From a virus, in the IMG/VR virus record IMGVR_UViG_3300025767_001998, positions 1 through 29,936 of that record: a DNA stretch of 29,936 bases. One strand, 5' to 3'. Below the pieces are notes generated by a model that saw only the letters and a program-made list of their open reading frames with translations, did not search any database and had not been told where the DNA came from. Position numbers and translations under genes: made by a program. Below are positions 1,670-29,113 of the stretch, piece after piece (the stretch's first letter is position 1; the number at the start of each line of letters is the position of its first letter).

Positions 1670-3589
1670 ATGGCAAGAAAAACAGTATTTCAACAATTAA
1701 ATGATTTATTTGGACCAGAAGTTAAAAAACAACAAAATAAATCAAGATATTCTATTAACGATAAAGAACTTCTTAAAACTAAATCTAAAGAAGAGTATGA
1801 TTTTGAGAAGTTAAAAAGACAACAAGACGCATATCTTTCTAATATGTGGCAAAAGGTGGATAATGAAATCTACCAACATTCCATTTATTATGAGACAACT
1901 AGATTGGCATCTTACGCAGATTTTGAGGGTATGGAGTTTTTCCCTGAAATCGCAGCAGCTTTAGATATTATGATGGAAGAATCTACTACATTAAATGCAG
2001 ATAACAAAGTTATTAACATATTTTCTGAAAGTAGAAGAGTTAGGAGAATACTAGATGACTTATTTTTTAATAGATTAGATATACATACATCATTACCTAT
2101 GTGGACAAGAAATGTTTGTAAATATGGTGATGACTTTTTATTTCTTAATATCGACAGTGAAGAAGGGATTACAGGTGTTAAACAATTACCTAACATCGAA
2201 ATTAGTAGAAAAGAAAATGAAGGATTCGGTGAAAACTCAATGAATGCAGAAACAGATAAATTTAACCCTGTTAAGTTTATATGGGGACAAAGAGATGTCG
2301 AATTTAATGCTTGGCAAATTGCACACTTTAGATTATTGGGTGATGATAGAAGATTACCTTATGGGACTTCTATGTTGGAGAAGGCGAGAAGGATATGGAA
2401 ACAATTATTACTTTCTGAAGATGCGATGTTGATATATAGAGTAACAAGAGCACCTGAGAGAAGGATATTTAAAATATTTGTCGGTAACATTGATGAGAAA
2501 GATGTACCCGCATATGTTAACAACATTGCAAATAACTTCAAAAGAAGTCCAGTTATCGATCAGAACACAGGACAGATAGATACTAGATATAACCAAATGG
2601 CGCAGGATCAAGATTACTTTATTCCTGTAAGAGATGCAAACGCACCTTCCCCAATAGATACTTTACCAGGTGCAACTAACCTATCTGAGATTGCTGACAT
2701 TCAATACCTACAGAAAAAATTGTTTACTGCACTTAGAGTCCCTAAACCATTCTTAGGTTTTGAGGAGGCTAACGGTGAGGGTAAAAATTTGGCGTTACAA
2801 GATATTAGATTTGCTAGAACAATTAATAGAATCCAACAAGCAATGTTGCAAGAATTAAATAAGATTGCAATTATTCACTTATATATTTTAGGGTTGGAGG
2901 ATGAGTTAGAAAACTTTACTTTAACGTTGAATAACCCATCTACACAAGCGGAGATGTTGAAGGTTGAACAAACTCAGTTAAAGGTAACACTTTACAAAGA
3001 CGCAGTAACAGATGCTGGTAATGGATTCGGTTCAATGTCAATGACTAGAGCTAAGAAAGAGATCTTAGGAATGTCTGAAGAAGAAATTAGAACAGATTTA
3101 GAACAACAGAGATTAGAAAAAGCTGCCGCAGCAGAAATGGAACAAACTGCAACCATCATTAAGAAAACAGGAATATTTGATAGGGTTGATAAATTATATG
3201 GTGATTTCTCTACATTAACTGGTGGTGCATCCGCAGAGGGTGGTGAAGAAGGTGGAGATACAGGTGGTGAAGACTTAGGTGGATTCGGTGGAGACACTGG
3301 AGGAGACTTAGGTGGATTCGGTGCAGACACTGGAGGTGAAGAAACTGCAGCAGAACCTGCACCTACTGAAGAATCAGTAAAGAAAAAAGATAATCTTTTA
3401 TTAGAACAAGATAGAAGAAGATACGAAGAGAAAGTTAAGAAATATCAGGGAATTTACTTAAATAGACTTATGGAAAGTTTAGATAAGGATGAAAGGGTTT
3501 TTAACTTAGATGAGGTAGAAAAAGATACTGAAACACTAAATTCCAAAATTAGTGATATGACAAAAGAAATCGATAATTTAATAAAATAG
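1670..3589 (+). CDS. 20: Portal protein (T4 gp20-like) with Gly/Asp-rich C-terminal insert
   Basis: Forms the dodecameric ring at the capsid vertex through which the terminase packages DNA and to which the neck attaches. The protein has 639 residues, against 524 for T4 gp20. The central region carries gp20-type sequence: PYGTSMLEKARRIWKQLL (from residue 230) followed by VTRAPERRIFKIFVGNI. Residues of about 515-570 form a low-complexity Gly/Asp/Glu/Ala-rich linker with a tandem 11-residue repeat (DLGGFGGDTGG then DLGGFGADTGG), followed by a charged, probably helical C-terminus. The start follows an A-rich leader (AAGAAAAAATGG) typical of this genome. It sits between terminase and prohead genes, as expected for a portal. 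The extra length lies mainly in the C-terminal part, and its role is unknown. Confidence 0.93.
   Translation: MARKTVFQQLNDLFGPEVKKQQNKSRYSINDKELLKTKSKEEYDFEKLKRQQDAYLSNMWQKVDNEIYQHSIYYETTRLASYADFEGMEFFPEIAAALDIMMEESTTLNADNKVINIFSESRRVRRILDDLFFNRLDIHTSLPMWTRNVCKYGDDFLFLNIDSEEGITGVKQLPNIEISRKENEGFGENSMNAETDKFNPVKFIWGQRDVEFNAWQIAHFRLLGDDRRLPYGTSMLEKARRIWKQLLLSEDAMLIYRVTRAPERRIFKIFVGNIDEKDVPAYVNNIANNFKRSPVIDQNTGQIDTRYNQMAQDQDYFIPVRDANAPSPIDTLPGATNLSEIADIQYLQKKLFTALRVPKPFLGFEEANGEGKNLALQDIRFARTINRIQQAMLQELNKIAIIHLYILGLEDELENFTLTLNNPSTQAEMLKVEQTQLKVTLYKDAVTDAGNGFGSMSMTRAKKEILGMSEEEIRTDLEQQRLEKAAAAEMEQTATIIKKTGIFDRVDKLYGDFSTLTGGASAEGGEEGGDTGGEDLGGFGGDTGGDLGGFGADTGGEETAAEPAPTEESVKKKDNLLLEQDRRRYEEKVKKYQGIYLNRLMESLDKDERVFNLDEVEKDTETLNSKISDMTKEIDNLIK
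3272..3337 (+). repeat. Tandem 33-nt repeat inside portal gene
   Basis: Two head-to-tail 33-nt units (3272-3304 and 3305-3337) encode DLGGFGGDTGG and DLGGFGADTGG. A related partial unit (GGDTGGED) precedes them. The repeat is in frame, so copy-number change would only lengthen or shorten the flexible linker. Confidence 0.85.
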
Positions 3590-3609
3590 AACTTTTTTAT
3601 AAATTCAGA

Positions 3610-3619
3610 ATATTTATTT
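3610..3619 (+). promoter_or_regulatory. Candidate late-promoter element
   Basis: ATATTTATTT, followed by ATAAAAAAG, lies 12 nt before the ATG at 3632. The surrounding sequence closely matches the element before the minus-strand gene starting at 11339 (both read ATATTTATTTATAAAAA), which argues against chance. The promoter role is inferred. Confidence 0.4.
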
Positions 3620-3631
3620 ATAAAAAAGAAC

Positions 3632-4396
3632 ATGGAGAATTTTGGTAATATTAAAGATACCTTTAAAAATTTAGTTGTTGAGTCTGTAATTAAAAAAGAC
3701 GAAAAAGGAAAAAAGTTATTTTCTAAATTTTTAAAAACAATCAAAGAGAATAAAACATTAAAAGATCAATACTTAATTTATAGTAATTTACAGAATAGTA
3801 AATTTGATGATGTTGTTGAGGCGAAAGAATTTGTTAAGGAGAATATTGAACTTCTTAAAGGTTTAAATGAAGGACATATCGTAAAAGGTAATGAGTTTTT
3901 CCTTAAACTACTTAAAGGTAATCAGATCGTAAAAGAAAATCAAGAATTTTACAATAAAGTATCTTATTTAGTTAACACTGAAAAAACACCTTCTAACATT
4001 AAAAAGATTAATGAAACAATTAACTATATTGTTAAACCTATGTTAGAAAAAGAAGAGGTAGGAGAAGTTGTTACAGAGAGTATAGATTTACCACCTAGTG
4101 TATTAACAAAATTGGCAGTAAACAAATTTAATTCTAGATATTCTAACATTACAGAATCTGAAAAAGAAATTATCAAAACAGTACTTAATGGTACGAATGA
4201 AGATAAAGAAAATATCTATAATAAAATAAAAAGAGAATGTATTGATGGAATTGATTCAAAATTAAATGAATCATCTGATTTAGAACTTAAAGATAAACTT
4301 CTTAAAGTTAAAGATAAGTTATTAAACTCAGGATTCAATTTAGATACTTTCAGTACTGACATTTCTAAATTTTATGATTTAAAAGAATCTATTTAA
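3632..4396 (+). CDS. Candidate prohead core protein (position of T4 gp67/gp68)
   Basis: The 254-residue protein is Lys/Glu/Asn/Leu-rich and predicted mostly helical, with no domain I recognise. It lies between portal and prohead protease, where T4 carries the small core genes 67 and 68. Two features fit a core role: high charge and helical content, and the tetrapeptide LNES (Glu at residue 213), which also occurs near the scaffold C-terminus and at the expected capsid processing point. No clear sequence similarity to gp67 or gp68 can be claimed by eye. A candidate late element lies 12 nt upstream, and a hairpin region with a terminator follows the stop, so this gene appears to end a transcript. 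The function is inferred from context only. Confidence 0.5.
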   Translation: MENFGNIKDTFKNLVVESVIKKDEKGKKLFSKFLKTIKENKTLKDQYLIYSNLQNSKFDDVVEAKEFVKENIELLKGLNEGHIVKGNEFFLKLLKGNQIVKENQEFYNKVSYLVNTEKTPSNIKKINETINYIVKPMLEKEEVGEVVTESIDLPPSVLTKLAVNKFNSRYSNITESEKEIIKTVLNGTNEDKENIYNKIKRECIDGIDSKLNESSDLELKDKLLKVKDKLLNSGFNLDTFSTDISKFYDLKESI

Positions 4397-16222: not shown

Positions 16223-16999
16223 TTATACTTCATATGTTATTTCTCTATCTTCAGTGAAAAAATATTCTTTCTTTGCTTTGTTTACCCAAAACTTACTTTC
16301 TAAAACATCAATTGTTGACTTATATTCTACGAATAAAGAACCTTCTCTATTGTTAGTATGTTTATAACCCAATTTAGGTATAACCATAATAGGGATAGAT
16401 AAATAAGACATTCTTAATAAGAATTCATAAGTAAATGTAAGTTTCATATGTGATTTTAAACCACCATTCTCTAAGAAAGTATCTCTTTTTACGATCATAC
16501 CATCAAAGTTAAAGTTTTGAACTCTTAGTAATGTATTATTATCTAATCTACCAATTTCTTCTGAGAAATCTTTAGCCCATACACTTTCATTAGTAAATGA
16601 AATAAATTTACCATTCTCATCAGTTTCATAAACAATAGGTAAGAATATTCCCACTTCTGGATATGCGTTAATATATTCTACACCATTTTTAATCCATATT
16701 GGGGATACCTCATCATCGTACTCAACAAAAGTGAAATAATCACCATTACTTTTTTCTACCCCATAATTAATTTGTGATTGGAAATCATATTTTCCTGTTT
16801 CGTTTTCAATAACTTTAGTAACGTCTTTAATGTCACCAAAATCGTAACTATTTAAATAGTTTTTTACGTCCTCATCATTAGATGTTACAAAAATAACCTC
16901 ATAAGGTTTAGTTTTTTGTGATTTAATACTTTCAATACAACCAACTAAATAATTCTCTTCTAGTTTGTGTACTGGTACTATTACTGTAATATTTGACAT
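16223..16999 (-). CDS. Family 2-type glycosyltransferase (GT-A fold)
   Basis: 258 residues, starting with the classic GT2 opening MSNITVIVPVHKLEENYLVG, a nucleotide-sugar-binding strand-helix. YDDE at residues 94-97 lies where the metal-binding DxD-type motif belongs (GDYFTFVEYDDE). A later hydrophobic/aromatic region around NFNFDGMIVKRDTFLENGG fits the acceptor side of the fold. No transmembrane segments, so it is cytoplasmic. It ends 10 nt before the sigma factor gene start and begins 23 nt after the small basic gene, in the same transcription unit as a second glycosyltransferase. Donor and acceptor cannot be read from the sequence. Confidence 0.85.
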   Translation of the reverse strand: MSNITVIVPVHKLEENYLVGCIESIKSQKTKPYEVIFVTSNDEDVKNYLNSYDFGDIKDVTKVIENETGKYDFQSQINYGVEKSNGDYFTFVEYDDEVSPIWIKNGVEYINAYPEVGIFLPIVYETDENGKFISFTNESVWAKDFSEEIGRLDNNTLLRVQNFNFDGMIVKRDTFLENGGLKSHMKLTFTYEFLLRMSYLSIPIMVIPKLGYKHTNNREGSLFVEYKSTIDVLESKFWVNKAKKEYFFTEDREITYEV

Positions 17000-17022
17000 A
17001 TTTATTTTTTTATTTTTAATTG

Positions 17023-17157
17023 TTATCTACCTTGTCCTTTATATTTTTTCTTATAAAGTTTACTAGTTTTTGTTTTACTAGTTTTTGTTTTAGCGTGCAC
17101 ACCTTTTCTCTTTTTTCTCGGATTCGGTGTGTAATAGTTATCTCCTATTCTAGCCAT
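17023..17157 (-). CDS. Small basic protein, 44 residues
   Basis: A short gene opening MARIGDNYYTPNPRKKRKGV and ending KKKYKGQGR. About 40 percent of residues are Lys or Arg. The ATG overlaps the stop of the upstream glycosyltransferase by 8 nt (ATGGCTAG), and the next gene starts 23 nt after the TAA, so it sits inside an operon. The middle is a duplicated KTKTS unit made by a 15-nt tandem repeat. Two points support a real gene: the tight start-stop overlap and a non-random, almost ribosomal-protein-like composition. It may bind nucleic acid or pack with DNA; no function is known to me. It is not a shadow frame of a neighbour, as no other gene covers this stretch. Confidence 0.72.
   Translation of the reverse strand: MARIGDNYYTPNPRKKRKGVHAKTKTSKTKTSKLYKKKYKGQGR
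17062..17091 (-). repeat. Perfect 15-nt tandem duplication inside the small basic gene
   Basis: ACTAGTTTTTGTTTT occurs twice head to tail on the plus strand (17062-17076 and 17077-17091). In frame it encodes a doubled Lys-Thr-Lys-Thr-Ser-type unit in the 44-residue protein. Confidence 0.9.
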
Positions 17158-18289
17158 TTGTTTCGGTATTTTCTGTTGTTACTTGTTCTTTTTCTTGAAG
17201 TTGGTTGTAAGTTGTTTCTAACTCAACAATTCTTCTTTTAAAGATACCATCATATACCTCAGATAAAACTTTATTAGATTCTTCTTCAGTATATTTATTT
17301 TCCCATTCTGTCATACCTTCCATAACGTTTTGTGGTAATGCGTCTTCTAAGTAAAGTCCTACCATAGTCGCAATGATATCAGGAATCGCATTCATATTAG
17401 GTGTCCATATACCATTATCATTAAGGTTAAGATTACCATTTTGATCAACAGTACCCATCCATTCTGGTACCATCCTAGGAATTTTACCAATAACAGGTGT
17501 GTTAGATTTCATACACTCTAATGGGAATGTACCGAAACTTGATAGTTCATCTACCCATACACCTAAGAAAGATTGTCCTAATTCTTTTGCGAAAGTTTCT
17601 CTAGGTAATCCCGCCATATCTCTGAATGTTACAAATCTATAGTGTGGGTATTTTTGGTAAAATACTTTTACTATTTTCAATAATTCTCTCTTATCTCTCG
17701 CAACCATTGCAACTGTAGGTACTTTAGGTTTATCACTATTCTTAAAATAAGATGGGATACCCACAGGTACTTCATCAGTTCTAATACCTCTAAATACTGA
17801 ATTTGCGTAATCAGAAAGATTCTTATTAGTAGTAATTACATCTCTAATTCCGAATTGTTCCCATCCCTCACCTATTTCTAACATCTCAAAGATATATTCG
17901 TATGATTGTAGGAAAACAATTCTTTTACAAGGGAAGTTCGCAGTTTGTTTAATAATACTTGCGAACGCTTCAGGAATAATAACAAAATCTGAAGGCCCAA
18001 CTTGTAGTTGTTGTGATTCTATAGAGACGTGTGGTATATTTGCGTATTCCTCACCTAACCACTCTGCGATACCCATACCTTCTTCATCTTCTCTGAGTTT
18101 GTAATCATTTTTGTCGTGAAGAATTTGAGCGTTGTATCCCAGTTCTCTAAGTTGTTTTACGTGTTCGTAAATTGTTGCAACACCTGCGGTTGGATTACCT
18201 TTGGTGTCAATAGTGAAAAAATAGATACCGAAATCTTTGTTGTTAATTTTTTCGATACCATTTTTAATTCTGTCTAATTGTTCACTCAT
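17150..18289 (-). CDS. GT-B glycosyltransferase
   Basis: 379 residues. The N-terminal Rossmann-like half begins at about residue 20 (FGIYFFTIDTKGNPTAGVAT). The C-terminal half has a GT4-type donor site: DELSSFGTFPLECMKSNTPV at about residues 248-267, where Glu and the FPLE-C-PV pattern correspond to the EFG-x-PLE-A-G-PV motif of retaining GT-B enzymes. The last 40 residues are charged and helical. The gene overlaps the small basic gene by 8 nt and starts 22 nt after the gene upstream. Cytoplasmic, no membrane anchor seen. Sugar specificity unknown. Confidence 0.78.
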   Translation of the reverse strand: MSEQLDRIKNGIEKINNKDFGIYFFTIDTKGNPTAGVATIYEHVKQLRELGYNAQILHDKNDYKLREDEEGMGIAEWLGEEYANIPHVSIESQQLQVGPSDFVIIPEAFASIIKQTANFPCKRIVFLQSYEYIFEMLEIGEGWEQFGIRDVITTNKNLSDYANSVFRGIRTDEVPVGIPSYFKNSDKPKVPTVAMVARDKRELLKIVKVFYQKYPHYRFVTFRDMAGLPRETFAKELGQSFLGVWVDELSSFGTFPLECMKSNTPVIGKIPRMVPEWMGTVDQNGNLNLNDNGIWTPNMNAIPDIIATMVGLYLEDALPQNVMEGMTEWENKYTEEESNKVLSEVYDGIFKRRIVELETTYNQLQEKEQVTTENTETNG

Positions 18290-18310
18290 AACATTTATTT
18301 GTTTTTATTA

Positions 18311-18643
18311 TTATAATTCTTTAAGAATACCTTTCATCAATAAAGTGTTAAAGGCAATCTTAAAAGGTATTGTTGTACTGTTGAGTGCAACTATACCCAT
18401 TTTATTATCTACTTCTTCGTTATACATCATAAGTGCACCGATCATTTCACGATACATTTCATATTTTGTAACATCAATATGTAATCCACCTGTGTCAGGT
18501 AGAGGTTCTTCTATCTCAACATCACCTTGTCCTTCATTAACAGTTAATGGTAATGGTTCTTGTTCGATTCGAACTATTTCTGACAATCTATCGATGTCAA
18601 GGTATAATTCTTTACCTCCGATCTCTAACAATAAGTTATCCAT
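18311..18643 (-). CDS. Unknown 110-residue acidic protein
   Basis: Not recognised. The N-terminal half is acidic with many Glu and Pro (EQEPLPLTVNEGQGDVEIEE), probably an extended linker. The C-terminal half is compact and hydrophobic (KYEMYREMIGALMMYNEEVD, then IPFKIAFNTLLMKGIL), suggesting a small helical domain. It lies between the HAD-like gene and a glycosyltransferase gene with gaps of about 20 to 45 nt, so it is probably co-transcribed with them. Confidence 0.68.
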   Translation of the reverse strand: MDNLLLEIGGKELYLDIDRLSEIVRIEQEPLPLTVNEGQGDVEIEEPLPDTGGLHIDVTKYEMYREMIGALMMYNEEVDNKMGIVALNSTTIPFKIAFNTLLMKGILKEL

Positions 18644-18688
18644 ATGATTTTTTTATTAAATTTATGTAAAATTCTAAATTAGTAAATA

Positions 18689-19306
18689 TTAAATGTCTTC
18701 AAACTCTATAGTTTGTGTTCCTAATATTTTTTCTAATATTTTTTTGTCATCTAAAATTTCTTTTAGATCTAAAATTGTATAATCTGCGTCACAATCCTTA
18801 TTATAGTGATTTATAACTTTAATTGATACCTTTTCTTTTGGTTTTGTTTCTAATGTTGTGGGGTTTGCGGTAATAAGAATATCCACATGATCCCATTTTT
18901 TATCATAATCTCTAACAAAAACAATATTATTTACCTTTGCGGAAAGTTTAGATAAAAAGAATAATGTTGCGGGTTTACTATTGTTTAGTTCTTTACTGAT
19001 CACAATAGGGGTATGTCCCATATCTTCTATTAGATTATGTAGTTGGTTTAGGTGTTCTACAGAATTAAGTTTTGTCTCACCTGCGTGTCCAAATATTTCT
19101 AATGATGAATCAATATAAAGAAATTTATTAAGTTCTTCAGTACCACCAGTAAATTTAAAATGTTCTAAAAGATTTAAGGTGTTAATATCTCTCTTAGGTA
19201 ATTCTTCACCCTCTTCTAATTCTACAGGATAATACTTATCATATACTGATTCGAACTTAGTTATAAAGTCTCTAACTACACCGTCAATTGTTATTCCAAT
19301 TCTCAT
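18689..19306 (-). CDS. HAD-superfamily-like protein with altered catalytic motif
   Basis: 205 residues. The opening MRIGITIDGVVRDF matches HAD motif I (DxDG-V-x-RD) at every key position except the first: Thr5 stands where the nucleophilic Asp normally is, while the acid/base Asp7 remains. Later candidate motifs are IVISKE (motif II Ser), SKPATLFFLSK (motif III Lys) and DHVDILITANP (acidic motif IV). Phage HAD proteins of this layout are usually related to 5'-nucleotidases or polynucleotide-kinase-type phosphatases. With the nucleophile replaced, ordinary phosphatase chemistry is unlikely, so a binding or structural role is possible. Clustered with unknown and PhoH genes on the minus strand. 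Confidence 0.6.
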   Translation of the reverse strand: MRIGITIDGVVRDFITKFESVYDKYYPVELEEGEELPKRDINTLNLLEHFKFTGGTEELNKFLYIDSSLEIFGHAGETKLNSVEHLNQLHNLIEDMGHTPIVISKELNNSKPATLFFLSKLSAKVNNIVFVRDYDKKWDHVDILITANPTTLETKPKEKVSIKVINHYNKDCDADYTILDLKEILDDKKILEKILGTQTIEFEDI

Positions 19307-19352
19307 ATTTTAATTTTTATTAATAGTAGTAATATATAGTAATTAGTAAACT

Positions 19353-20108
19353 TTATTTACTGCTTTCTAAATCATCGAAGGTTGATTCGATGACCTTGAT
19401 GATTGGGTTTCTAACTACATCATCAGGATCTCTCAATGTAACAGTACCAAATCCTTCAACACCTTCAAATTTTTCAATAATGACTTCTAAAGAACTGTCA
19501 GTTCTTTTCTTAATATCTTTTTGTTTAACATCACCTAAAATAACCATCTTTGAGTTGTCACCAATTCGAGTCATTAAGGTTCTCATATTACTTACGGATA
19601 TGTTTTGTGCCTCATCAACAATAATAATTGTGTTATCAATACTACGACCTCTAACAAAGGCTAATGGTTGGATATTAATAATACTCAACTCCCTTAATTT
19701 TCTAGTTAAACTCTCACCAATAATCTTTTCAAAATTATCTATAAAAGATATCATATAAGGATCTAATTTTTCTGATAAATCTCCAGGTAAAAAACCTAAT
19801 TCTTCTCCGGGTAACTGTATTACAGATTTAACCAAAAGTATTTTTTTATATTTTTCTCTTGTTTTGATTAATTTTAGGGCTTCTGCACATGCAATATATG
19901 TTTTTCCACTACCGGCCAATCCTGACGCAATAGTTATCTCATTTTCTTTTATCGATTGTACTAATTTTTTTTGGTTTTCTGTTTTACATTTAACATTAAC
20001 AAACATAGATGATAAAAATTTATCTTCTTCCATGTTTTTACTATATACGAAGGATTCGACTTCTCTAAGTTCTTCCTCTGTTAGTTTTTTATTTCTTCTT
20101 CTACTCAT
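19353..20108 (-). CDS. phoH: PhoH-like ATPase
   Basis: 251 residues of the PhoH family, a P-loop ATPase common in T4-like phages and thought to act in RNA or nucleic-acid metabolism. Walker A is GLAGSGKT (residues 63-70) and Walker B is IIIVDEAQNIS (161-171), with QPLAFVRGRSIDNT in front as usual in the family. SNMRTLMTRIGDNSKMVILG (sensor-type region) follows. Only the PhoH core is present; no KH or PIN domain. It stands between the HAD-like gene and the FkbM methyltransferase gene. A TATAAATA octamer lies just upstream. Confidence 0.92.
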   Translation of the reverse strand: MSRRRNKKLTEEELREVESFVYSKNMEEDKFLSSMFVNVKCKTENQKKLVQSIKENEITIASGLAGSGKTYIACAEALKLIKTREKYKKILLVKSVIQLPGEELGFLPGDLSEKLDPYMISFIDNFEKIIGESLTRKLRELSIINIQPLAFVRGRSIDNTIIIVDEAQNISVSNMRTLMTRIGDNSKMVILGDVKQKDIKKRTDSSLEVIIEKFEGVEGFGTVTLRDPDDVVRNPIIKVIESTFDDLESSK

Positions 20109-20125
20109 TCGTTAAATTTATTATA

Positions 20126-20133
20126 TATTTATA
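20126..20133 (-). promoter_or_regulatory. T4-late-like octamer before PhoH gene
   Basis: On the minus strand the sequence reads TATAAATA, the exact T4 late -10 octamer, 17 nt before the PhoH ATG. It overlaps the end of the methyltransferase gene by a few bases. Only suggestive in so AT-rich a genome. Confidence 0.3.
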
Positions 20134-20809
20134 TTATTTTTTTAAACAAATAATCTTTATGTCCTTTTATTATCGTACCACTTATATTTTTAATGTTATA
20201 TTTTTCTAAAATTTCAACAACTTCATGTCCAGTACAATGACCTTCATCCGCCCTATCATATCTTAATTCTAAATTAAGCCCAACTATTCTACCTTCTTCT
20301 AATGATTTAGTTGCACCTTTAATCATGTCTAATTCGGCACCCTCAATATCTGCCCAAATGAAAATATTTTTCACGTATGGGTATTTTTCTAATATTTTAT
20401 CTATGGTGGTTAATTGAATGGTTGATTTCTTATAGTGACCCTCTTCTATTAATTTTTCAGAACCATGTAACCAGAAATCACTCTTTCCACCTTCGTAACC
20501 CATAAACCCCTCAACCTCAGTTTCGGTTTCACCAACACCTAATTTATATAAGTCACCAACATAGTGACCTTTAACCATTTCATATCTTTCGTTGTGTGGT
20601 TCAAAACCAATGATAGTACATTCAGGTTTTAAATCCTTAACAGACCAAGCTTCGGTACCCACATACCCAACACCACAATCAATAAAACAATCAAAATCAT
20701 ATTGGTTTATAATATTTTGTATTTGTGAATGATGTGATCTACTATTAACAGATGCGTTGTTGATTTGTGTCCATTGATGCTTAAATGCAGCTCTCTCTCT
20801 ATTATTCAT
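20129..20809 (-). CDS. FkbM-family methyltransferase
   Basis: 226 residues. SAM-binding motif I is FIDCGVGYVGTEA (about 43-54), and the acidic post-I motif is GFEPHNERY (68-76), the signature of FkbM enzymes. TTIDKIL (134-140) and IWADIEGAELDMIKGA (151-166) are the other FkbM landmarks. Members methylate hydroxyl groups of sugars or small metabolites, often in polysaccharide loci. The start overlaps the stop of the second methyltransferase gene by 8 nt, so the two are made together. In this locus a sugar O-methylation role is the natural reading, though the target is not known. Confidence 0.85.
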   Translation of the reverse strand: MNNRERAAFKHQWTQINNASVNSRSHHSQIQNIINQYDFDCFIDCGVGYVGTEAWSVKDLKPECTIIGFEPHNERYEMVKGHYVGDLYKLGVGETETEVEGFMGYEGGKSDFWLHGSEKLIEEGHYKKSTIQLTTIDKILEKYPYVKNIFIWADIEGAELDMIKGATKSLEEGRIVGLNLELRYDRADEGHCTGHEVVEILEKYNIKNISGTIIKGHKDYLFKKII

Positions 20810-21374
20810 TTTTATCGATTATAATTAAATAGGAAAATTGATTCATTTGGACATCTCTATCTTTAGTTCTAATTTTCTCAAATGTTATTTCATGTGGAGC
20901 AACAAGACCTTCAAATTCATGTATATTTTTATAATTACCAGAACCAGTGTCGTCCCACCAATTACAATGACCTTCCGGAGAAGGTCTTGAGTCGTTAAAT
21001 GAATGTCTCCAAGGAACTGTAATTATAAGTCTTTTAACAGTTAATTCTAATAAATTATTTAACGCTTCTTTATAATTGGGTAAGTGTTCTAATACTTCAC
21101 AACACATGACAGTTTCACACTTTTTAACTGGGAACGACTCTAAATCAAATATATTTGCTAAACTATATTCTAATTTATTAAAATATTCTGACATATTTTT
21201 ATCAAACCACGGGGCTCTTTGATAGTCAGTTGAGTAGACTTTAAAACCATCCTTTATTAAGTGATAATCTTTTTTGCAATCACCGGCACCAACTACCAAT
21301 ACTTCTTTTTTCTCAGAAATTGATTTTATTTCTTTAATAATGCGTTCATGTCTAATATCTAATTTTGGTTCCAT
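20802..21374 (-). CDS. Class I SAM-dependent methyltransferase
   Basis: 190 residues. VLVVGAGDCKKD (about 25-36) is the SAM-binding loop, with VYSTD (46-50) holding the acidic ribose-binding residue. MCCEVLEHLPNYKEALNNLL (90-109) is the motif typical of Methyltransf_11/23-type enzymes, followed by LIITVPW. The C-terminal half contains Trp- and His-rich sequence (HCNWWDDTGSGNYKNIHEFE) that probably shapes the substrate pocket. The start shares a TAATG with the stop of the upstream glycosyltransferase gene, and the end overlaps the FkbM gene. Likely acts on a sugar or nucleotide sugar; unproven. Confidence 0.83.
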   Translation of the reverse strand: MEPKLDIRHERIIKEIKSISEKKEVLVVGAGDCKKDYHLIKDGFKVYSTDYQRAPWFDKNMSEYFNKLEYSLANIFDLESFPVKKCETVMCCEVLEHLPNYKEALNNLLELTVKRLIITVPWRHSFNDSRPSPEGHCNWWDDTGSGNYKNIHEFEGLVAPHEITFEKIRTKDRDVQMNQFSYLIIIDKNE

Positions 21375-22312
21375 TATATATTATTTTTTATCGCTTCGTC
21401 CCATCTATTAGCAAATTTTTCTGGGGTGAAATCCCTTATTATTGGTTGACAGTCTTCGACTATCTTATTTTGTAACACTTCATCATTTATTATAGTTTCA
21501 AGTTTTTCTTTCATATCTTCAGGATTATTCCGTTCATGATAGATAACGTTATCACCATAAACTTCTTTAAACACTGGTAAATCACTAAGTAATACTGGTA
21601 TACCACAATATAACGCTTCAATAGGTGTAATACCCCACCCTTCAAAAACTGAAGGTGAAACGATTAAAGTAGATTGTTTAATAGTTTTAATCAATTCTTC
21701 TCTAGGGGCACCGTCATGAATGTTTATATTTTGATTAAACTGTCTCATAGTGGATTTAATTTCTTTACCATAATTTCCTGAAATACCAGTACCAAAAAAA
21801 TGAACATCATATCCAATATCTCTAGTCGCAATAACAGTTTGATGGAATTTTTTATTATAGAAAAACCTACTAATTTGTGTTATTTTTTTCATCTTTTCTT
21901 GATTTGGAATAGAGTCTAATCCTTTGGTATCTATGTAAGAATACATTTGTATACTATCTATACCGTACTTTTCCTTAATACCATTTTGAACCCATTTACT
22001 AGCAGTTATAACTAAATCACATTGTTTTAATTCATTCACCCTTTGTTGGTTAATATTATCTCTGTGTACATTATCCCTATTACCTTGTTCTGACATACCC
22101 CATTCTCTCCAATTGTAAGGTATGTCCCAACACCAACAAACTAAAGGTTTATTATGTTTTTTCTTAGCCTCAAGTGATTGTGGTAATCTAGAAATACTTG
22201 AAGCGTATATTATATCACATGAGTCATCACATGTATTAAACATAAAATCATGTTCACTATATTCACAAAATAATTTATCCCTTTCACTAGGGTAAAACAT
22301 CGATATTTTCAT
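21374..22312 (-). CDS. GT4-type glycosyltransferase (GT-B)
   Basis: 312 residues. The donor-binding motif is clear: SPSVFEGWGITPIEALYCGI (219-238) followed by PVLLSDLPVFKEVYGDN, the standard E-x7-E region of retaining GT4 enzymes. KITQISRFFYNKKFH (143-157) marks the start of the C-terminal Rossmann domain. The N-terminal domain is shorter than in typical 370-residue enzymes, with WCWDIPYNWREWG as an aromatic patch. Its start lies inside the 3' end of the epimerase gene (26-nt overlap), so translation of the two is coupled. Confidence 0.88.
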   Translation of the reverse strand: MKISMFYPSERDKLFCEYSEHDFMFNTCDDSCDIIYASSISRLPQSLEAKKKHNKPLVCWCWDIPYNWREWGMSEQGNRDNVHRDNINQQRVNELKQCDLVITASKWVQNGIKEKYGIDSIQMYSYIDTKGLDSIPNQEKMKKITQISRFFYNKKFHQTVIATRDIGYDVHFFGTGISGNYGKEIKSTMRQFNQNINIHDGAPREELIKTIKQSTLIVSPSVFEGWGITPIEALYCGIPVLLSDLPVFKEVYGDNVIYHERNNPEDMKEKLETIINDEVLQNKIVEDCQPIIRDFTPEKFANRWDEAIKNNI

Positions 22313-23309
22313 TATTTTTAGTTTTCAAATACTCAATTAATTTATCAACACCTTTAGTAACATTATATTTAGGTTCCCACCCTAAACTCATGGCTTTAAT
22401 GTTATTAGAAACAAACATTTTTTGATCTCCGTCTCTTTCTATATTGTAACTTATTTCAACATTACTATTCGGTATTTTATCTTTGATGATATCAACTATT
22501 TCTAAAATAGAGACGGTGTTATTTGTTCCGCCACCCATGTTGAAAATATCACCCGGTTTTGATTTTTTAACGACTAATTCATAAAAATCAATAAGGTCAT
22601 CAATGAAGAGTATATCTCGAACCTGTTTACCATCCCCAAAAATGGTTATCGAACCATTCTCCAAAAATCTTTTAACAAACCATGCAACCCATCCTTGGTC
22701 TTCTGTACCATTTTGGTATGTCCCATAAATACAACTTTGCCTAATCACAACAGTATCTAAACCGTATATCCTAGAATAATCTCTAACGTACTGGTCCGCA
22801 GTCCCTTTACTACAACCATACGGTGAGTAAAAATCTAAAATTTCATCTTCTCCAATACCGTCAATATCTTCAGCAAATACATATCTGGTTTCTAGTTCAT
22901 TTAATACCCTATCATTTAAATCACCATAAACTTTATTAGTTGATGAAAATAGTAATTTACCATCTTTAGCGTATTTTCTCATACACTCTAAAACATTAAA
23001 TGTTCCAATTGCATTAGTTTCAAAATCCATAGTTGGGTTATCTAATGATGTAGTAACGGCTGTTTGTGCACCTAAGTGGAAAATCAAATCAAACTTATTT
23101 GATTTGAAAACCCTTTCGACATCATTAAGACTTCTTAAGTCACCTTTTTCAAATTTAACTATCGGATTATTTTCAACCAATTTAAGATTGTCTAACGAAC
23201 CTAATTTATTTAGATTGTCAAACAAAATTATATTGTCTGCTTTATTAATATAACGTAAAGCGGTATTAATTCCTATAAAACCTAATCCACCTGTAATTAA
23301 AATGTTCAT
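22287..23309 (-). CDS. NAD-dependent sugar epimerase/dehydratase, CDP-paratose 2-epimerase-like
   Basis: 340 residues, extended short-chain dehydrogenase. The NAD-binding motif is TGGLGFIG (6-13). The catalytic pair is Tyr164 and Lys168 in YSPYGCSKGTADQYV, with Ser/Thr122-124 in LLFSSTNKVYGD. VVIRQSCIYGTYQNGTEDQG and the following WVAWFVKRF resemble CDP-paratose (CDP-tyvelose) 2-epimerases more than UDP-glucose 4-epimerases. The product would be a nucleotide-activated hexose or deoxyhexose used by the neighbouring glycosyltransferases. No upstream CDP-sugar synthesis genes are visible here, so the substrate would come from the host or from elsewhere in the genome. SDR identity is firm; subfamily is moderate. 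Confidence 0.85.
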   Translation of the reverse strand: MNILITGGLGFIGINTALRYINKADNIILFDNLNKLGSLDNLKLVENNPIVKFEKGDLRSLNDVERVFKSNKFDLIFHLGAQTAVTTSLDNPTMDFETNAIGTFNVLECMRKYAKDGKLLFSSTNKVYGDLNDRVLNELETRYVFAEDIDGIGEDEILDFYSPYGCSKGTADQYVRDYSRIYGLDTVVIRQSCIYGTYQNGTEDQGWVAWFVKRFLENGSITIFGDGKQVRDILFIDDLIDFYELVVKKSKPGDIFNMGGGTNNTVSILEIVDIIKDKIPNSNVEISYNIERDGDQKMFVSNNIKAMSLGWEPKYNVTKGVDKLIEYLKTKNNENIDVLP

Positions 23310-23313
23310 TTTT

Positions 23314-24207
23314 TTATAATTTACAAAACTCTATTATTCTTTTACCCCATTGTTTAGGTAAAAATTCTTGAACTTTGTTGTAAGAATTTAACCTTATTCT
23401 ATTACGTTCCTCTTCATTTTCAAGGTAAAATTTAGCCTTTTCTATAAGTTCTTCTTTAGTTTCAAAAGTAACAATATTTTCATTAGAAGTAAATGTTTCT
23501 TCTAAACCTTTCCACGGTGTTGTCATTAAAAAACCACCAGATGCTAAAATTTTATAAATTCTAACAGATACACCTGTAGCGTCGGTTGGTGAAAAATTTA
23601 AATTGATTTTACTTTCATTAACTATTTTATTGTGTTCTAAACCGAAAATACCGGTATAATGTTTAAACCCAGAGAATTCGTTATTAAGCGTATTAACATA
23701 CATTTGACGATCACCATGTATCTTACTTGAATCAACGGAACCTATAAAAGTTATATCATCTTTATAATTAATATCGTCTAACATAAAATTCATTGCGTCA
23801 TCTGGGCATTGGTGAACAAATAAGGTATTGTTACAAAATTTTTTAGCGTATGGGGTAACACCCTCAACTCCTGAAATGAAGTAATTTACTCTCTTAGATT
23901 TTTCAACCAATTCATTATCAAAATTATGCATAGCATCCATATACCACATACAAGTTTTAGAAACTTTATTTATGTCGTCAACAACTCTATAATGCATTTG
24001 ATTACATTTACTAAAAATGACTAAATCAGGTTTTAATGAATGTGTTAAATTTATTAACTCATCGTCCCTTCTTTTTATATTCTTTAATGAAGATAGTCTA
24101 GTCCTATAATCATATTCATAGACTTCACTACCATTTTCTTTAAAACCTCTAGATTGGGATACATTGGTTGAATTTTTATTAAATACACCCACAAATAAAA
24201 TTTTCAT
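23314..24207 (-). CDS. GT-B glycosyltransferase, CgeB-like
   Basis: 297 residues. The C-terminal part has the pattern of CgeB-type (Glyco_trans_1_2) proteins: INLNFSPTDATGVSVRIYKI (201-220), then LASGGFLMTTPW. This lies where the donor sugar binds. The last 60 residues are a charged helix (YLENEEERNRIRLNSYNKVQ), also usual in this group. The N-terminus MKILFVGVFNKNSTNVSQSR starts a Rossmann-like strand-loop. It overlaps the upstream GT9-like gene by 4 nt and ends 4 nt before the epimerase gene start. Confidence 0.8.
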   Translation of the reverse strand: MKILFVGVFNKNSTNVSQSRGFKENGSEVYEYDYRTRLSSLKNIKRRDDELINLTHSLKPDLVIFSKCNQMHYRVVDDINKVSKTCMWYMDAMHNFDNELVEKSKRVNYFISGVEGVTPYAKKFCNNTLFVHQCPDDAMNFMLDDINYKDDITFIGSVDSSKIHGDRQMYVNTLNNEFSGFKHYTGIFGLEHNKIVNESKINLNFSPTDATGVSVRIYKILASGGFLMTTPWKGLEETFTSNENIVTFETKEELIEKAKFYLENEEERNRIRLNSYNKVQEFLPKQWGKRIIEFCKL

Positions 24208-25007
24208 CGTATATTTTTTAAAATAATTTCTTTTATATCATATGGATTAGGATCCCATCCACCATCCGCATAAAATATAACTTCAGTGTTGAAAGGGTTC
24301 CAGTCTTTTTCATACCTAATTCTATTATATTCTGTACTCCATACTAAATGTTTCATACCACATAATGAAGACAAATGCATTGGACCACTACTAGGTCCAA
24401 CAATAATTTTACTACTATTTAAAATACCTACTAATTCCTTCAATTCGATACCTCTTAAATTTTCGGTACCTTCAATATAAAAAGACTCCTCATTACCGAT
24501 ACATGCAATTTTTAAATTTTTAGGTAATAAATCATATAATTTTTCCCATTCAGATTTACCCCAATTTCTTTCTGACCCTGTTGATTTATTTCTACAATGA
24601 AATATAACATCGAAACCATTTTCAGTTTTATAATCATATTTATAAAACTCTTGTTCAGTAAAAAAAAGTTTTTTAGTATCTACTACACCATTATGAGTGT
24701 ATCTCATACCGATATCAAAGTTACCTGATAAAAATACAGTGTGGGATATATTTTTGATTACATCTTTAGGGTCTTTACAATCATAACATTTCCACGCATC
24801 AGTTTTATAACTTTCAGGATTAAATTCTACATATTCGTCACAAAAATCTTCATATATATATTCATTCCCAGGTCTACCGATAATTATTGTTTTATCAAAT
24901 AACTTAGACATTTTTCTAACGTAACCCTGCCAACAAAATAATTCCCAACCGAATTCACCAACCCAAGGACCAGCCAATAATATTTTATCATTCTTCGTTA
25001 TAGACAT
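24204..25007 (-). CDS. GT9-like glycosyltransferase (heptosyltransferase fold)
   Basis: 267 residues. Residues from 130 show the ADP-heptose-transferase-like C-terminal domain: FDVIFHCRNKSTGSERNWGK, with a W-x2-L-x2-LP stretch, then LVGILNSSKIIVGPSSGPMH (192-211), the usual donor-binding segment. The N-terminus PWVGEFGWELFCWQGYVRKM resembles the substrate-side start of the family. It overlaps the large fusion glycosyltransferase by 20 nt and the CgeB-like gene by 4 nt. Whether it transfers heptose cannot be told. Two Cys in KCYDC (about 73-77) are notable but unexplained. Confidence 0.75.
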   Translation of the reverse strand: MSITKNDKILLAGPWVGEFGWELFCWQGYVRKMSKLFDKTIIIGRPGNEYIYEDFCDEYVEFNPESYKTDAWKCYDCKDPKDVIKNISHTVFLSGNFDIGMRYTHNGVVDTKKLFFTEQEFYKYDYKTENGFDVIFHCRNKSTGSERNWGKSEWEKLYDLLPKNLKIACIGNEESFYIEGTENLRGIELKELVGILNSSKIIVGPSSGPMHLSSLCGMKHLVWSTEYNRIRYEKDWNPFNTEVIFYADGGWDPNPYDIKEIILKNIR

Positions 25008-26649
25008 TAATAAATAATTCTTTATATTTTTTAATTATTTGTTCGTTATCAAAAATAGACATATCTTTAGGGACTTCCTGATAACTCTTATCTATCATAT
25101 TTCCATTTTTATCGACAATATAAACCCATCCAGGCTTATTACATAGAAACCCTTCTATAGTAGTTCTACCTAAAAATATTCCCGCAGTTTCGTCACATTT
25201 ATTAACAAACTCTTCTATTTTATCTGTGGGAGGAAAGTATTTTACATAATCATATTTATTAGAAAATTCTTGTGCATAACCCATAGTATCCTTACCCACT
25301 AACCACAGTTCTTCTGTGTTATTAATTAAATCTTCAATAGACTCTCTTCTAAGATAATCCATCGTACCAACGAATAGGGTAACTTTTTTATTTGTACCTT
25401 TATCTAATTTTTTCGGTATAAACCTACTTTTATCAAATAAATTATAAATAATTTCTATCTTAGAATCTTCGATATTATAATTATTTTTTATATATTCTTT
25501 AATTGAAGGTCTTATTGCTATATATTTTTTAATTCTGTTGTCAATGATAGGGTTTTCTAAATCAATAACTTCAGATCTAACTATATTAATAAAATTATTA
25601 TTAGGGTATAATTGTAAAAGTCTATTCGTTATCGGTGTGTGGTTTGTTAAAATGACATCGAATTTCATGTCCTTAACCATATATAATGTATTTGGTTTAC
25701 TATTAATCACTCCGTTTGGGGTATTCAACACCCACTTACCATCACCCATTTTATATCCTGGGGGTTCTTGTATAGGATATACTTTTATTGAATGTTTTTC
25801 CGCCTCTCTTTTAAAATTATTACCTATCTGAGAGGTAATATATACATCACAACCGTTTTTAACTAAACCTTTCGCTAACTCCATAGTAGACAACTCTGAC
25901 CCCGTTAAACCTTGAAAATTTAAACAACCAATTAATACTTTTAATTTTCTATTCCTAAATTTATCATCAACTTTAACTGGTAAAGTTTCACCATACTTTT
26001 CTACAAAAAGTTGTCTGTTTCGTTCCCATTCATCATTTGTTTCACCAATAGACATGTGGTTAATTCGTATATCAGTGATAACACCAACAGACACACCTGA
26101 AACAAAGTTTTTATAACAAAAATCTACATCATAAAAATGAAAACCTTTAACTCTTTCATCAAAAGGGGTATAGTCACCATCAATAACAATTCTTTCTTTA
26201 TGAACGGCAAAGAATAAACCATCAACATTAACAACATCTTCAACCCCTTTACCTAAATCAGAACTATATTCGGATAACCAACTTTTACCATTATGTGTGT
26301 GTTTTACTCTCCCATACATCCATTTAGGTTTTTCCCACCATTTACCTGTGTTCGGTAAATATTTACTACCTGCAACACCTATAATGCCATATTTTTCTTC
26401 TTTATCAAAATGATTTTTAAGTTTTTTACCCCATTGTTTAGTTTCTATTAATATATCATCATGTACATACGTTATAATGTCAAATTTGGCCCGTTTTAGT
26501 ATTTCATTATAACAATTTGTTAATGACCTGTCACCATTGTTAATTATTTGTATAACCTCCACTTTACCTTTGGGTAAACCACTTGTTTTAATTAAATACT
26601 CAATATGTTTTGGGTTATCCTCTCTAGTAGAAAAACCAATCGTTACCAT
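24988..26649 (-). CDS. Two-domain glycosyltransferase fusion (GT2-like plus GT-B)
   Basis: 553 residues with two enzyme-like halves. Residues 1-230 form a GT-A domain of the Glyco_tranf_2_5 type: MVTIGFSTREDNPKHIEYLI at the start, ITYVHDDILIE with HDD at 63-65 as the metal site, and FHFYDVDFCYKNF near the end. Residues 240-553 form a GT-B domain: KLKVLIGCLNFQGLTGSELS with a Gly-rich loop, KVTLFVGTMDYLRRESIEDL starting the second Rossmann half, and GIFLGRTTIEGFLCNKPGWV as the donor-binding region. The two could add two sugars in succession. It is the last glycosyltransferase before dUTPase and starts a run of overlapping genes; a TATAAATA octamer lies 23 nt upstream. Confidence 0.85.
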   Translation of the reverse strand: MVTIGFSTREDNPKHIEYLIKTSGLPKGKVEVIQIINNGDRSLTNCYNEILKRAKFDIITYVHDDILIETKQWGKKLKNHFDKEEKYGIIGVAGSKYLPNTGKWWEKPKWMYGRVKHTHNGKSWLSEYSSDLGKGVEDVVNVDGLFFAVHKERIVIDGDYTPFDERVKGFHFYDVDFCYKNFVSGVSVGVITDIRINHMSIGETNDEWERNRQLFVEKYGETLPVKVDDKFRNRKLKVLIGCLNFQGLTGSELSTMELAKGLVKNGCDVYITSQIGNNFKREAEKHSIKVYPIQEPPGYKMGDGKWVLNTPNGVINSKPNTLYMVKDMKFDVILTNHTPITNRLLQLYPNNNFINIVRSEVIDLENPIIDNRIKKYIAIRPSIKEYIKNNYNIEDSKIEIIYNLFDKSRFIPKKLDKGTNKKVTLFVGTMDYLRRESIEDLINNTEELWLVGKDTMGYAQEFSNKYDYVKYFPPTDKIEEFVNKCDETAGIFLGRTTIEGFLCNKPGWVYIVDKNGNMIDKSYQEVPKDMSIFDNEQIIKKYKELFINVYNEE

Positions 26650-26672
26650 CTTTTTAAATTTTTAAATTAAAT

Positions 26673-26680
26673 TATTTATA
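26673..26680 (-). promoter_or_regulatory. T4-late-like octamer before the glycan operon
   Basis: The minus strand reads TATAAATA, 23 nt before the ATG at 26649, in the 47-nt gap after the dUTPase gene. This is the only gap in front of the six overlapping or near-adjacent genes from 26649 down to 20802, so a promoter here would drive the glycan operon. The role is inferred. Confidence 0.35.
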
Positions 26681-26696
26681 AAAATATATGAATTTT

Positions 26697-27263
26697 TCAT
26701 TCTTTTCCTGTCGACCCAAATCCCAACTCACCTCTTTCGGTTTCAGATAGATTATTTGTTTTAACTAATTCACTTATACTTTGTCCCACAACATTCATAA
26801 TCACACCTTGTGCGATTCTTTCGCCTGATTGTATTGAATAATCTTCATTACTTAGATTTACCACAATAACACCAACATCACCTCTATATCCTTCATCCAC
26901 AGTTCCTGGTGTATTTAAAACAGAGATACCATACTTTAACGCCATACCACTTCTAGGTCTAACTTGTAATTCTGTATTTGGTGATAATTCGAACTTAAGA
27001 CCCGTAGGTATTAATTTTCTTTCTAAAGGTTTTAGAGTAATTGGTTCAGAGATAAACGCTCTTAAATCAAATCCACTGTCCCCAACCTTTGCGTACTCAG
27101 GATCAGGATTATTAGAACTATTAGTGAATTTAGTTTTTATTTTGAAATTATCCCAGTCACCCTCATTAAAACCATTCATTTCGGTTTGGTTAAATGATTC
27201 TATTTGTTCCATTAAACTCTTTAGTTCATTTAATTCATTAAGTTCTCTTTCAAAACCTTCCAT
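26697..27263 (-). CDS. dut: dUTPase
   Basis: Hydrolyses dUTP to dUMP and pyrophosphate, keeping uracil out of phage DNA and supplying dUMP for dTMP synthesis. 188 residues of the trimeric all-beta family with all five motifs: KVGDSGFDLRA (59-69), RPRSGMALK (102-110), NTPGTVDEGYRGDVGVIVVN (117-136, catalytic Asp123), GERIAQGVI (147-155) and RGELGFGSTG (177-186). About 40 N-terminal residues before the core are an extra charged Asn/Glu-rich segment (ELNELNELKSLMEQIESFNQ) of predicted helix. The ATG directly abuts the stop of the HD-like gene, so they form one transcript. Confidence 0.95.
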   Translation of the reverse strand: MEGFERELNELNELKSLMEQIESFNQTEMNGFNEGDWDNFKIKTKFTNSSNNPDPEYAKVGDSGFDLRAFISEPITLKPLERKLIPTGLKFELSPNTELQVRPRSGMALKYGISVLNTPGTVDEGYRGDVGVIVVNLSNEDYSIQSGERIAQGVIMNVVGQSISELVKTNNLSETERGELGFGSTGKE

Positions 27264-27824
27264 TTATTTCTTTTTACATTCAATTATTGCGAGTTCATTC
27301 GCCAATCTTAATATGGTAGATAATGTACTCCCATACCATTTAGATTGTTTATCATCGTCAGTCTTATCATAATTAAGTATTGACTGATATTCTTCATCAG
27401 ATAATTCAACACCATATCTTAATGAATAGTATGCGGATCTTTCTCCCACTCTCATAGAAACTAAATCCTCATTAAAGTCATACATTTTACCTTGATTCTT
27501 TCTATGCCACTCAGATTCACAGAATTTATAGAGTTTTACTTTTCCTAACTGATGTAGGAAACAAACTCTTATAATAGATTTTTTATCAACCCTTTGTGAT
27601 TCAGGTAAAATATCATTTAGATTAATTCCGTATTTAGTGACAGTTAGAATATAATCTATTAACCCACCAGGAAATGCATTATACATACTTTCCATATTAG
27701 ATGCGGGTGCACTATATAAATCTTCACCTAAAAACTCTAATAAATTTTCAGATAGGATGTTATAGGTTTCATTAGTTTTATTAAACTTTTCTTTATTTTT
27801 TAATATTTTCTCTTTCAAATCCAT
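27264..27824 (-). CDS. HD-domain-like protein with lost metal ligands
   Basis: 186 residues with the layout of phage HD-type phosphohydrolases: AFPGGLIDYILTV (50-62), then CFLHQLGKVKLY (88-99), the motif normally reading HDLGK, then SEWHRKNQGKMYDFNEDLVS, and LRLANELAIIE near the C-terminus, normally LADxxA. Known family ligands are H, HD and D; here the first His is Tyr58, the Asp of HD is Gln92, and the last Asp is Asn176. NYDK at 151-154 also seems to replace a His-containing motif. The fold appears intact, but two-metal chemistry should be lost, so a regulatory or binding role is likely. It abuts the dUTPase gene. Confidence 0.68.
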   Translation of the reverse strand: MDLKEKILKNKEKFNKTNETYNILSENLLEFLGEDLYSAPASNMESMYNAFPGGLIDYILTVTKYGINLNDILPESQRVDKKSIIRVCFLHQLGKVKLYKFCESEWHRKNQGKMYDFNEDLVSMRVGERSAYYSLRYGVELSDEEYQSILNYDKTDDDKQSKWYGSTLSTILRLANELAIIECKKK

Positions 27825-27856
27825 GATTTTACAAGTTTATTATAATAATAAAGAAA

Positions 27857-29113
27857 TTATTTCACTAAGTCAACTTCCACTCCTTTTTTTTCTTCTACTA
27901 ATTTAACATATAAGTCTCTTCTTTTCTCACAAACAGATTTCATATCATACGTTCCATTCACTGTATTATATAAATTCTCACCTAATTTTGTAATTAGATC
28001 TGGATTAAGAATTAATTTTTTAAGATGTGAATACCATAACTTATGATTTTTAATCGTAGGTACTAAGAAACCATTACCTTCTTCATTTATATCACCACCT
28101 TTCAGATAGGCGTTTTCAATGTCTATTTGATAAGGTCCGAAATCTTGTGCAATTATCGCCTTCTTATGGAATCCCGCCTCAATAACCTTAAGTTGTGATT
28201 TAACCTTATTAAATGTACTTTCTTTAAGTGGTGCAAGTGATATATCGAATAAATTATAATTAGACGCATATGAAGTAATAGGTTTAGTCCATACTCTTCT
28301 ATATGGTTCATTATGTACATTCTCATATTCTTTATTTTCAAAAGACAATAAGAATTTTTTATAATCTTCACTCACTAAATTATAATCATCAGTAAATATT
28401 CTTTCATATTGATACCATACAGATTCTTTTGGTTTAATAGGTCTTTGTTTTTGTTCACCTGTTTTCTGATCAATCATAGTCATAGTACCTCTTAAATCAA
28501 AACCACATAAAACAAATTGTACTTTATCTAATAAACCATCTGATTTAAGTTTAGTCATTAAACCTCTTAGTATTTCCAAATCTTTCATATGTGAAGAACC
28601 ACCTAACCATCCGATTCTAATTCTATCACTTTTCTCAGGATTACTCTGATATTGTTTCTCGTCTGGATTAATTGCGTTTGGTAAGACAAAGACATTCTTA
28701 TTTAATTTAGAAATCTCATCCGCAAATACTGAAGTAGTGGTTGTAACATTTCTAGATATTTTAAGATTATTCGCAATCTTCTTATCTAAATTATTTTGTT
28801 TGATGATTTGCCACGCAGGATGATCAGGGCCAGGTGACCAATGATCATCAATATCCATAATTGTTGCAATACCCAATTCATCACATCTTTCCAATAGTTT
28901 AGGTAGATTATCATAATCTCCCAATGTCCTATGATAATGAATTAAATCGTATTGTTTAAGATAGTTATCATCATTTAATTGTGGTTCGTAATCAATATCC
29001 ACATGAAACTCTTTTGGGAAGTATTCCTCTAACTTAATATGTGGTATTGTAGATCTGAAATAACTCACACCAGTACGGTCGCTGGGTACTACTAAAATTT
29101 TTATCTTACTCAT
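27857..29113 (-). CDS. GT-B glycosyltransferase (GT4-like), first gene of the minus-strand locus
   Basis: 418 residues. The N-terminal Rossmann domain opens SKIKILVVPSDRTGVSYFRS; TIMDIDDHWSPGPDHPAWQ (84-102) is a block familiar from phage-encoded GT4-like proteins. RIRIGWLGGSSHMKDLEILR begins the second domain, and KVIEAGFHKKAIIAQDFGPY is the donor-binding region with the usual Glu. The middle contains a charged insertion (about 220-300). It is the most upstream gene of the minus-strand block and lies back to back with the early genes on the other strand. No convincing promoter was seen in the 122-nt divergent gap on its side. Confidence 0.82.
   Translation of the reverse strand: MSKIKILVVPSDRTGVSYFRSTIPHIKLEEYFPKEFHVDIDYEPQLNDDNYLKQYDLIHYHRTLGDYDNLPKLLERCDELGIATIMDIDDHWSPGPDHPAWQIIKQNNLDKKIANNLKISRNVTTTTSVFADEISKLNKNVFVLPNAINPDEKQYQSNPEKSDRIRIGWLGGSSHMKDLEILRGLMTKLKSDGLLDKVQFVLCGFDLRGTMTMIDQKTGEQKQRPIKPKESVWYQYERIFTDDYNLVSEDYKKFLLSFENKEYENVHNEPYRRVWTKPITSYASNYNLFDISLAPLKESTFNKVKSQLKVIEAGFHKKAIIAQDFGPYQIDIENAYLKGGDINEEGNGFLVPTIKNHKLWYSHLKKLILNPDLITKLGENLYNTVNGTYDMKSVCEKRRDLYVKLVEEKKGVEVDLVK

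Follow-up and report, generated by a model that had tools for sequence, protein, structure and literature searches.

An HD-fold phage protein encoded beside dUTPase is almost certainly catalytically dead and maintained by selection

For HD proteins, the fold alone usually decides the annotation as phosphohydrolase, and the locus described here raises the question of why phages would keep such a fold once its metal site is gone. The window, the whole stretch of DNA that was analyzed (29,936 nucleotides, from IMG/VR virus record IMGVR_UViG_3300025767_001998), encodes a small HD-fold protein between the following neighbors:

27857..29113, minus strand: glycosyltransferase gene, upstream of the HD gene and conserved in nearly all relatives (PHROG 7162, 5.9e-40; synteny)
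27264..27824, minus strand: gene for the HD-fold protein, almost certainly catalytically dead, 186 amino acids, ATG start (open reading frame, homologues, model)
26697..27263, minus strand: dUTPase gene (dut), the second slot of the module described below; its start abuts the HD stop, its core motifs are intact and it has an N-terminal extension of about 50 residues (Pfam PF00692, 1.6e-24; PHROG 135, 4.3e-51; alignment)

The surrounding minus-strand interval 16223-29113 is dense in glycosyltransferase, methyltransferase-like and sugar-epimerase-like open reading frames, with a PhoH-like frame and dut interleaved; these identities come from reading the sequence, except for two glycosyltransferases that were tested.

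Searched against Pfam, PHROGs and PADLOC, the window protein falls in no family, and NCBIfam gives a weak match below threshold, so its identity has been drawn from relatives and structure. Through an intermediate homologue, the relative L026, it is linked to the PHROG 28876 'metal-dependent phosphohydrolase' (1.5e-10), and this match together with matches to many HD structures identifies the HD helical fold. The window protein also matches a YhaM profile (E 0.0069). An AlphaFold prediction built on an alignment of 51 relatives has a mean pLDDT of 95.4, and the YhaM exoribonuclease is its top solved structure (Foldseek E 4.9e-5; Z 16.6, rmsd 3.0 over 166 residues, 14% identity, the next entry having Z 9.7). 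YhaM is again the top match (Z 17.1) for the model of L091, a relative with intact metal ligands. The confident model, the YhaM match and its agreement with L091 lead us to assign the window protein to the YhaM-type HD fold; since its full length aligns to YhaM residues 103-284, no residues are left for an OB domain, and as modeled the protein is a YhaM-type HD fold without one. Weak HMM matches point to HD families acting on nucleic acids (MobH/TraI_2) over the first half of the domain. Among phage records, tblastn finds a 'phosphohydrolase' of Flavobacterium phage immuto (28% identity, 2e-8) and Streptococcus phage Dp-1 (4e-3), and a scan of genome contigs gives distant relatives only, mostly in Firmicutes. 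Capsid similarity to Rhodothermus phage RM378 and to immuto points to T4-like phages, for which a Bacteroidota host is probable.

The HD superfamily is defined by an H...HD...D metal-binding quartet (PMC8177086). When the window protein is aligned with ligand-intact relatives, the quartet falls at residues 58, 91, 92 and 176, which in the window read Y58-H91-Q92-N176, so that H58Y, D92Q and D176N are replacements and H91 alone is kept. The relevant positions are as follows:

27651..27653, minus strand: codon 58, the former first ligand (His of GGLxxH), now Tyr; alignment, His in 62 of 69 relatives
27549..27554, minus strand: codons 91-92, the former His-Asp pair, now His-Gln; alignment, D92 kept in 2 of 69
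27540..27545, minus strand: codons 94-95, the Gly-Lys pair of HDxGK; all 69 have K95
27471..27515, minus strand: codons 104-118, SEWHRKNQGKMYDFN, a conserved insertion following HQLGK that the model folds as strand-helix-strand; W106 does not vary
27306..27308, minus strand: codon 173, where ligand-intact relatives have the HxxD His; 68 of the 69 carry Lys or Arg
27297..27299, minus strand: codon 176, the former last Asp ligand, now Asn; alignment, Asp in none of 69

Among 69 distinct relatives whose genes are linked to dut or MazG, not one has a full quartet. H91 is kept in 55 of them, two (L264 and L285) have lost all four residues, and L073 is an intermediate in which the HD pair is kept and the last Asp is lost; the former ligand positions vary among Q, G, S, E and N, I, F, S. 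The quartet is intact in the distant relatives from immuto, Dp-1 and the marine contigs L078-L094, comparators that comprise few distinct sequences, and the HxxD His at 173 is present in all four ligand-intact rows. Because these outgroups keep all four ligands, quartet loss is the derived state, on the assumption that they root the tree (midpoint rooting, with a long outgroup branch). The H58Y change occurs only in the window, L003/L004 (the same as L015/L016) and a few other members. It is a late extra step, common to the window and its 97% relative, while the losses of D92 and D176 are general to the family.

These results largely agree with the initial annotation, which had proposed an HD fold with most metal ligands replaced next to dut and had named alignment with ligand-intact phage HD proteins as a check. 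That alignment locates the four ligands and finds three of them replaced, and the HD gene ends in a TAA directly followed by the dut ATG. The proposed changes of HD to HQ and of the final Asp to Asn are present in the window, and loss of these two Asp residues, to varying substitutes, is general to the family. The change of GGLxxH to GGLIDY is true of the window protein and does not extend to the family, most of which keeps the His. The suggestion that NYDK replaces a further His ligand fails: immuto and Dp-1 have His at residue 152 and the quartet-intact marine relatives have Thr, which disqualifies the site as a defining ligand. A change that the annotation does not mention is the replacement of the HxxD His at 173.

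With its metal site gone, the protein cannot carry out the standard HD reaction. A protein that is still an enzyme would have to use other conserved residues (H107, D153, D158, E128, E145) or no metal at all, and H107, D153 and E145 are indeed nearly invariant in the family. They are, however, equally conserved in most ligand-intact relatives and thus are not replacement ligands; the drift at the former ligand positions also argues against continued catalysis, which we regard as decidedly improbable. We also considered an HD paralogue elsewhere as carrier of the activity and rejected it: the family profile finds a single copy per contig, and other HD proteins occur in a few large contigs, not generally.

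The family is large, its members being IMG/VR metagenomic contigs, and its 69 distinct sequences have open frames and invariant residues down to about 40% identity to the window protein. K95, W106 and E145 are kept in all 69 and G94 is also fixed, while H107, N110, G112, Y115, F117, N118 and D153 and the stretch SEWHRKNQGKMYDFNE are near-fixed. Comparing the nearest relatives pair by pair gives dN/dS values of about 0.03-0.33, with 0.06 between the window and L015, that is, after the loss of H58. That a useless gene is neutrally decaying, or is carried along in a conserved block, would fit with the equally conserved upstream gene order and with the fact that the HD gene can be lost, but strong purifying selection, so many open frames and the near-fixation of G94-K95, W106, E145 and SEWHRKNQGKMYDFNE make it very unlikely, to the point of being barely credible. 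The preference of the initial annotation for a selected non-catalytic state over random decay is thus upheld by an intact fold, low dN/dS and a loss common to all 69 sequences. We conclude that, almost certainly, the window protein has lost HD hydrolase activity and is preserved by selection.

The genomic context of the family is a two-slot module that follows the glycosyltransferase gene. The first slot holds a dead HD gene, a DEDD 3'-5' exonuclease gene or nothing, and the second holds dUTPase or MazG. HD genes linked to dut lie in a conserved order, glycosyltransferase - HD - dut, and the distance from HD stop to dut start is mostly -20 to +20 nucleotides, often an overlap. In a scan based on dut, the HD gene was found at 35 of 80 loci and none was seen at the other 45, some of which are ended by contig edges. 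Comparison of L231:2800-2900 with L232:2301-2870 reveals flanks that are 94-96% identical, with the HD gene cleanly absent from L231 and present in L232; this pair and the 45 loci indicate that dut functions without HD. In at least 14 dut loci that lack HD, a PF10108 3'-5' exonuclease takes its place and ends at or near the dut start. Most of these first-slot proteins keep the DEDD residues (e.g., L230 and L266). In two of them, directly upstream of dut (L236:2113-2844 and L253:2286-2972), the catalytic residues are lost (motif I D to H/N; F-D to F-T/F-H; C-E-K-D to CEKN/SEDY), making a second pseudo-nuclease. Three contigs that lack HD have a stand-alone PF10108 gene; among the HD-bearing contigs searched there was none, and the hits there fall in long frames that are presumably DNA polymerases.

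The downstream neighbor, wherever readable, is a dNTP pyrophosphohydrolase, either dUTPase or the unrelated MazG, which strengthens the link to nucleotide metabolism that had been drawn from the abutment with dut. A second dUTPase subfamily fills the slot in L049/L052 and L075. MazG stands in the stead of dut in L062-L064, L067 and L074: it follows HD directly in L062, lies beyond an HNH insertion in L067, and in L074 sits about 0.7 kb downstream; dut and MazG are mutually exclusive on the contigs searched, the MazG contigs being fragments of 22-100 kb. Loci that depart from the tight spacing have open reading frames inserted between HD and its partner, such as GIY-YIG (L026:6594-7526, by Pfam; L043:6602-7714, by sequence likeness) and HNH (L067:6638-7252) frames, which are likely homing elements. 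The frame directly after dut is an IMP dehydrogenase/GMP reductase in L068:7155-8222 (Pfam), and that in L043:8820-9614 is alike by sequence.

Could the HD protein be a dedicated regulatory subunit that docks on dUTPase, perhaps via the N-terminal extension? The overlap of HD stop and dut start would suit such a pair, as would the comparison of the window with L015 (L015:6562-7140), where identity is about 95% across HD and the opening ~26 codons of dut and about 60% beyond. This drop some 80 nucleotides inside dut marks a recombination breakpoint at which the dUTPase core was exchanged, the N-terminal extension having stayed with HD, so that the two traveled together. On the other hand, the extension varies, since L075 and L076 lack it and dut genes with no HD neighbor can have it, and the partner is swapped for the other dUTPase subfamily (L049, L075) and for MazG of unrelated fold. 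Partner swapping weakens docking specific to dut, and we consider this explanation quite unlikely.

We tentatively favor, at slightly less than an even chance, a dead exonuclease fold of the YhaM type that is retained to assist dNTP sanitation by binding nucleotides or single strands. This reading draws on the kept GK and SEWH...Y.FN residues, on the Lys/Arg that has replaced a nearby His, and on the dNTP-sanitizing partner. From the alignment and topology, the conserved residues would line the old pocket. The window protein may bind without cleaving, its ligand being most probably a single-stranded nucleic-acid end, or else a nucleotide; the retained GK/W-H/Y-x-F-N stretch and the Lys/Arg at 173 would hold this ligand. 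The likely ligand shifts towards nucleic acid because YhaM is by far the closest structure, whereas the model resembles dGTPase/SAMHD1 structures only as far as HD folds in general do (Z about 8). In the dNTP-sanitizing step of the phage the HD protein would act as an accessory that binds, protects or senses, probably beneficial and dispensable. A precedent is the D193A mutant of Staphylococcus aureus YhaM, at the residue that is Gln in the window, which is catalytically crippled and still binds RNA (PMC11347170). The YhaM HD mutants are also poor at oligomerizing (PMC11347170), which makes the analogy imperfect. Taken together, the data suggest retention for binding, not cutting, across many environmental T4-like phages.

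The same neighborhood could instead house an anti-defense decoy or inhibitor, close to the host-enzyme inhibitor that the initial annotation had proposed alongside a nucleotide regulator or sensor. Here the dead HD protein would bind and block either another nuclease or a host HD enzyme (a dGTPase/SAMHD1-like dNTPase), or would titrate a nucleotide signal, with the pool protected by dUTPase or MazG. Its appeal lies in the accessory distribution of HD, with clean presence and absence between near-identical phages, in the surrounding dNTP metabolism, and in the known bacterial anti-phage dGTPases, PDB 9p8w being among the structure matches listed. A decoy need not, however, share its slot with a DEDD exonuclease alternative, and the resemblance to dGTPase/SAMHD1 goes no further than the general HD fold. 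PADLOC-DB, a library that omits anti-defense proteins, has no match for the window protein and a weak Cas3-HD match for L073 alone. We judge the decoy unlikely. A DatZ-like dATPase was also considered on account of the adenylosuccinate synthetase gene near the ligand-intact HD gene in the viral contig L080 (L080:1816-2817, with a UvdE (UV-endonuclease) gene at 3146-4039) and was rejected: there is no DatZ among the structure matches listed, and no adenylosuccinate synthetase was seen at the dut-linked loci examined.

Returning to the binding accessory, part of the shared gene order simply reflects common descent, the glycosyltransferase being as conserved as dut; the stronger argument from context is that unrelated enzymes substitute for each other in both slots. 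This interchange ties the dead nuclease fold to phage dUTP/dNTP sanitation. It is possible, though doubtful, that the locus is a phage DNA-precursor quality module, whose first gene supplies a nuclease fold (a dead YhaM-type HD or a DEDD exonuclease, sometimes dead) and whose second supplies any dUTP/dNTP pyrophosphohydrolase, the first protein recognizing nucleotides or DNA/RNA 3' ends non-catalytically. In the literature on phage HD pseudoenzymes, degenerate HD domains and inactive HD proteins with dGTPase we found no description of a dead-HD family linked to dut or MazG, nor did we find one of non-catalytic recognition of nucleotides or 3' ends by pseudo-nucleases. The family is a large natural set of HD proteins without a metal site on a well-kept fold, and this loss, the close presence/absence pairs and the ligand-intact controls make a non-catalytic HD role directly testable.

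Among known systems, the dGTPase/SAMHD1 dNTP triphosphohydrolases share with the window protein the general HD fold and a nucleotide context; their structural match is far weaker, and the window protein is much smaller and lacks the quartet. The MobH/TraI_2 HD relaxases give a weak HMM match far below curated cut-offs, and the window has no relaxase context. Dp-1 gp21 and the immuto 'phosphohydrolase' (PHROG 28876 / 5889) are sequence homologues with the same conserved stretches, but they have an intact H-H-D-D, a longer C-terminus and no adjoining dut. The YhaM/Cbf1 3'-5' exoribonucleases differ from the window protein in having an N-terminal OB domain, a YhaM feature (PMC11347170), and an invariant His-Asp that is His-Gln in the window, where the last D and the first H are replaced too. 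They share with it the HD fold over its whole length and the P-A-x-x...H/N-x-F-x-x-G-L-x-x-H and H-x-x-G-K blocks.
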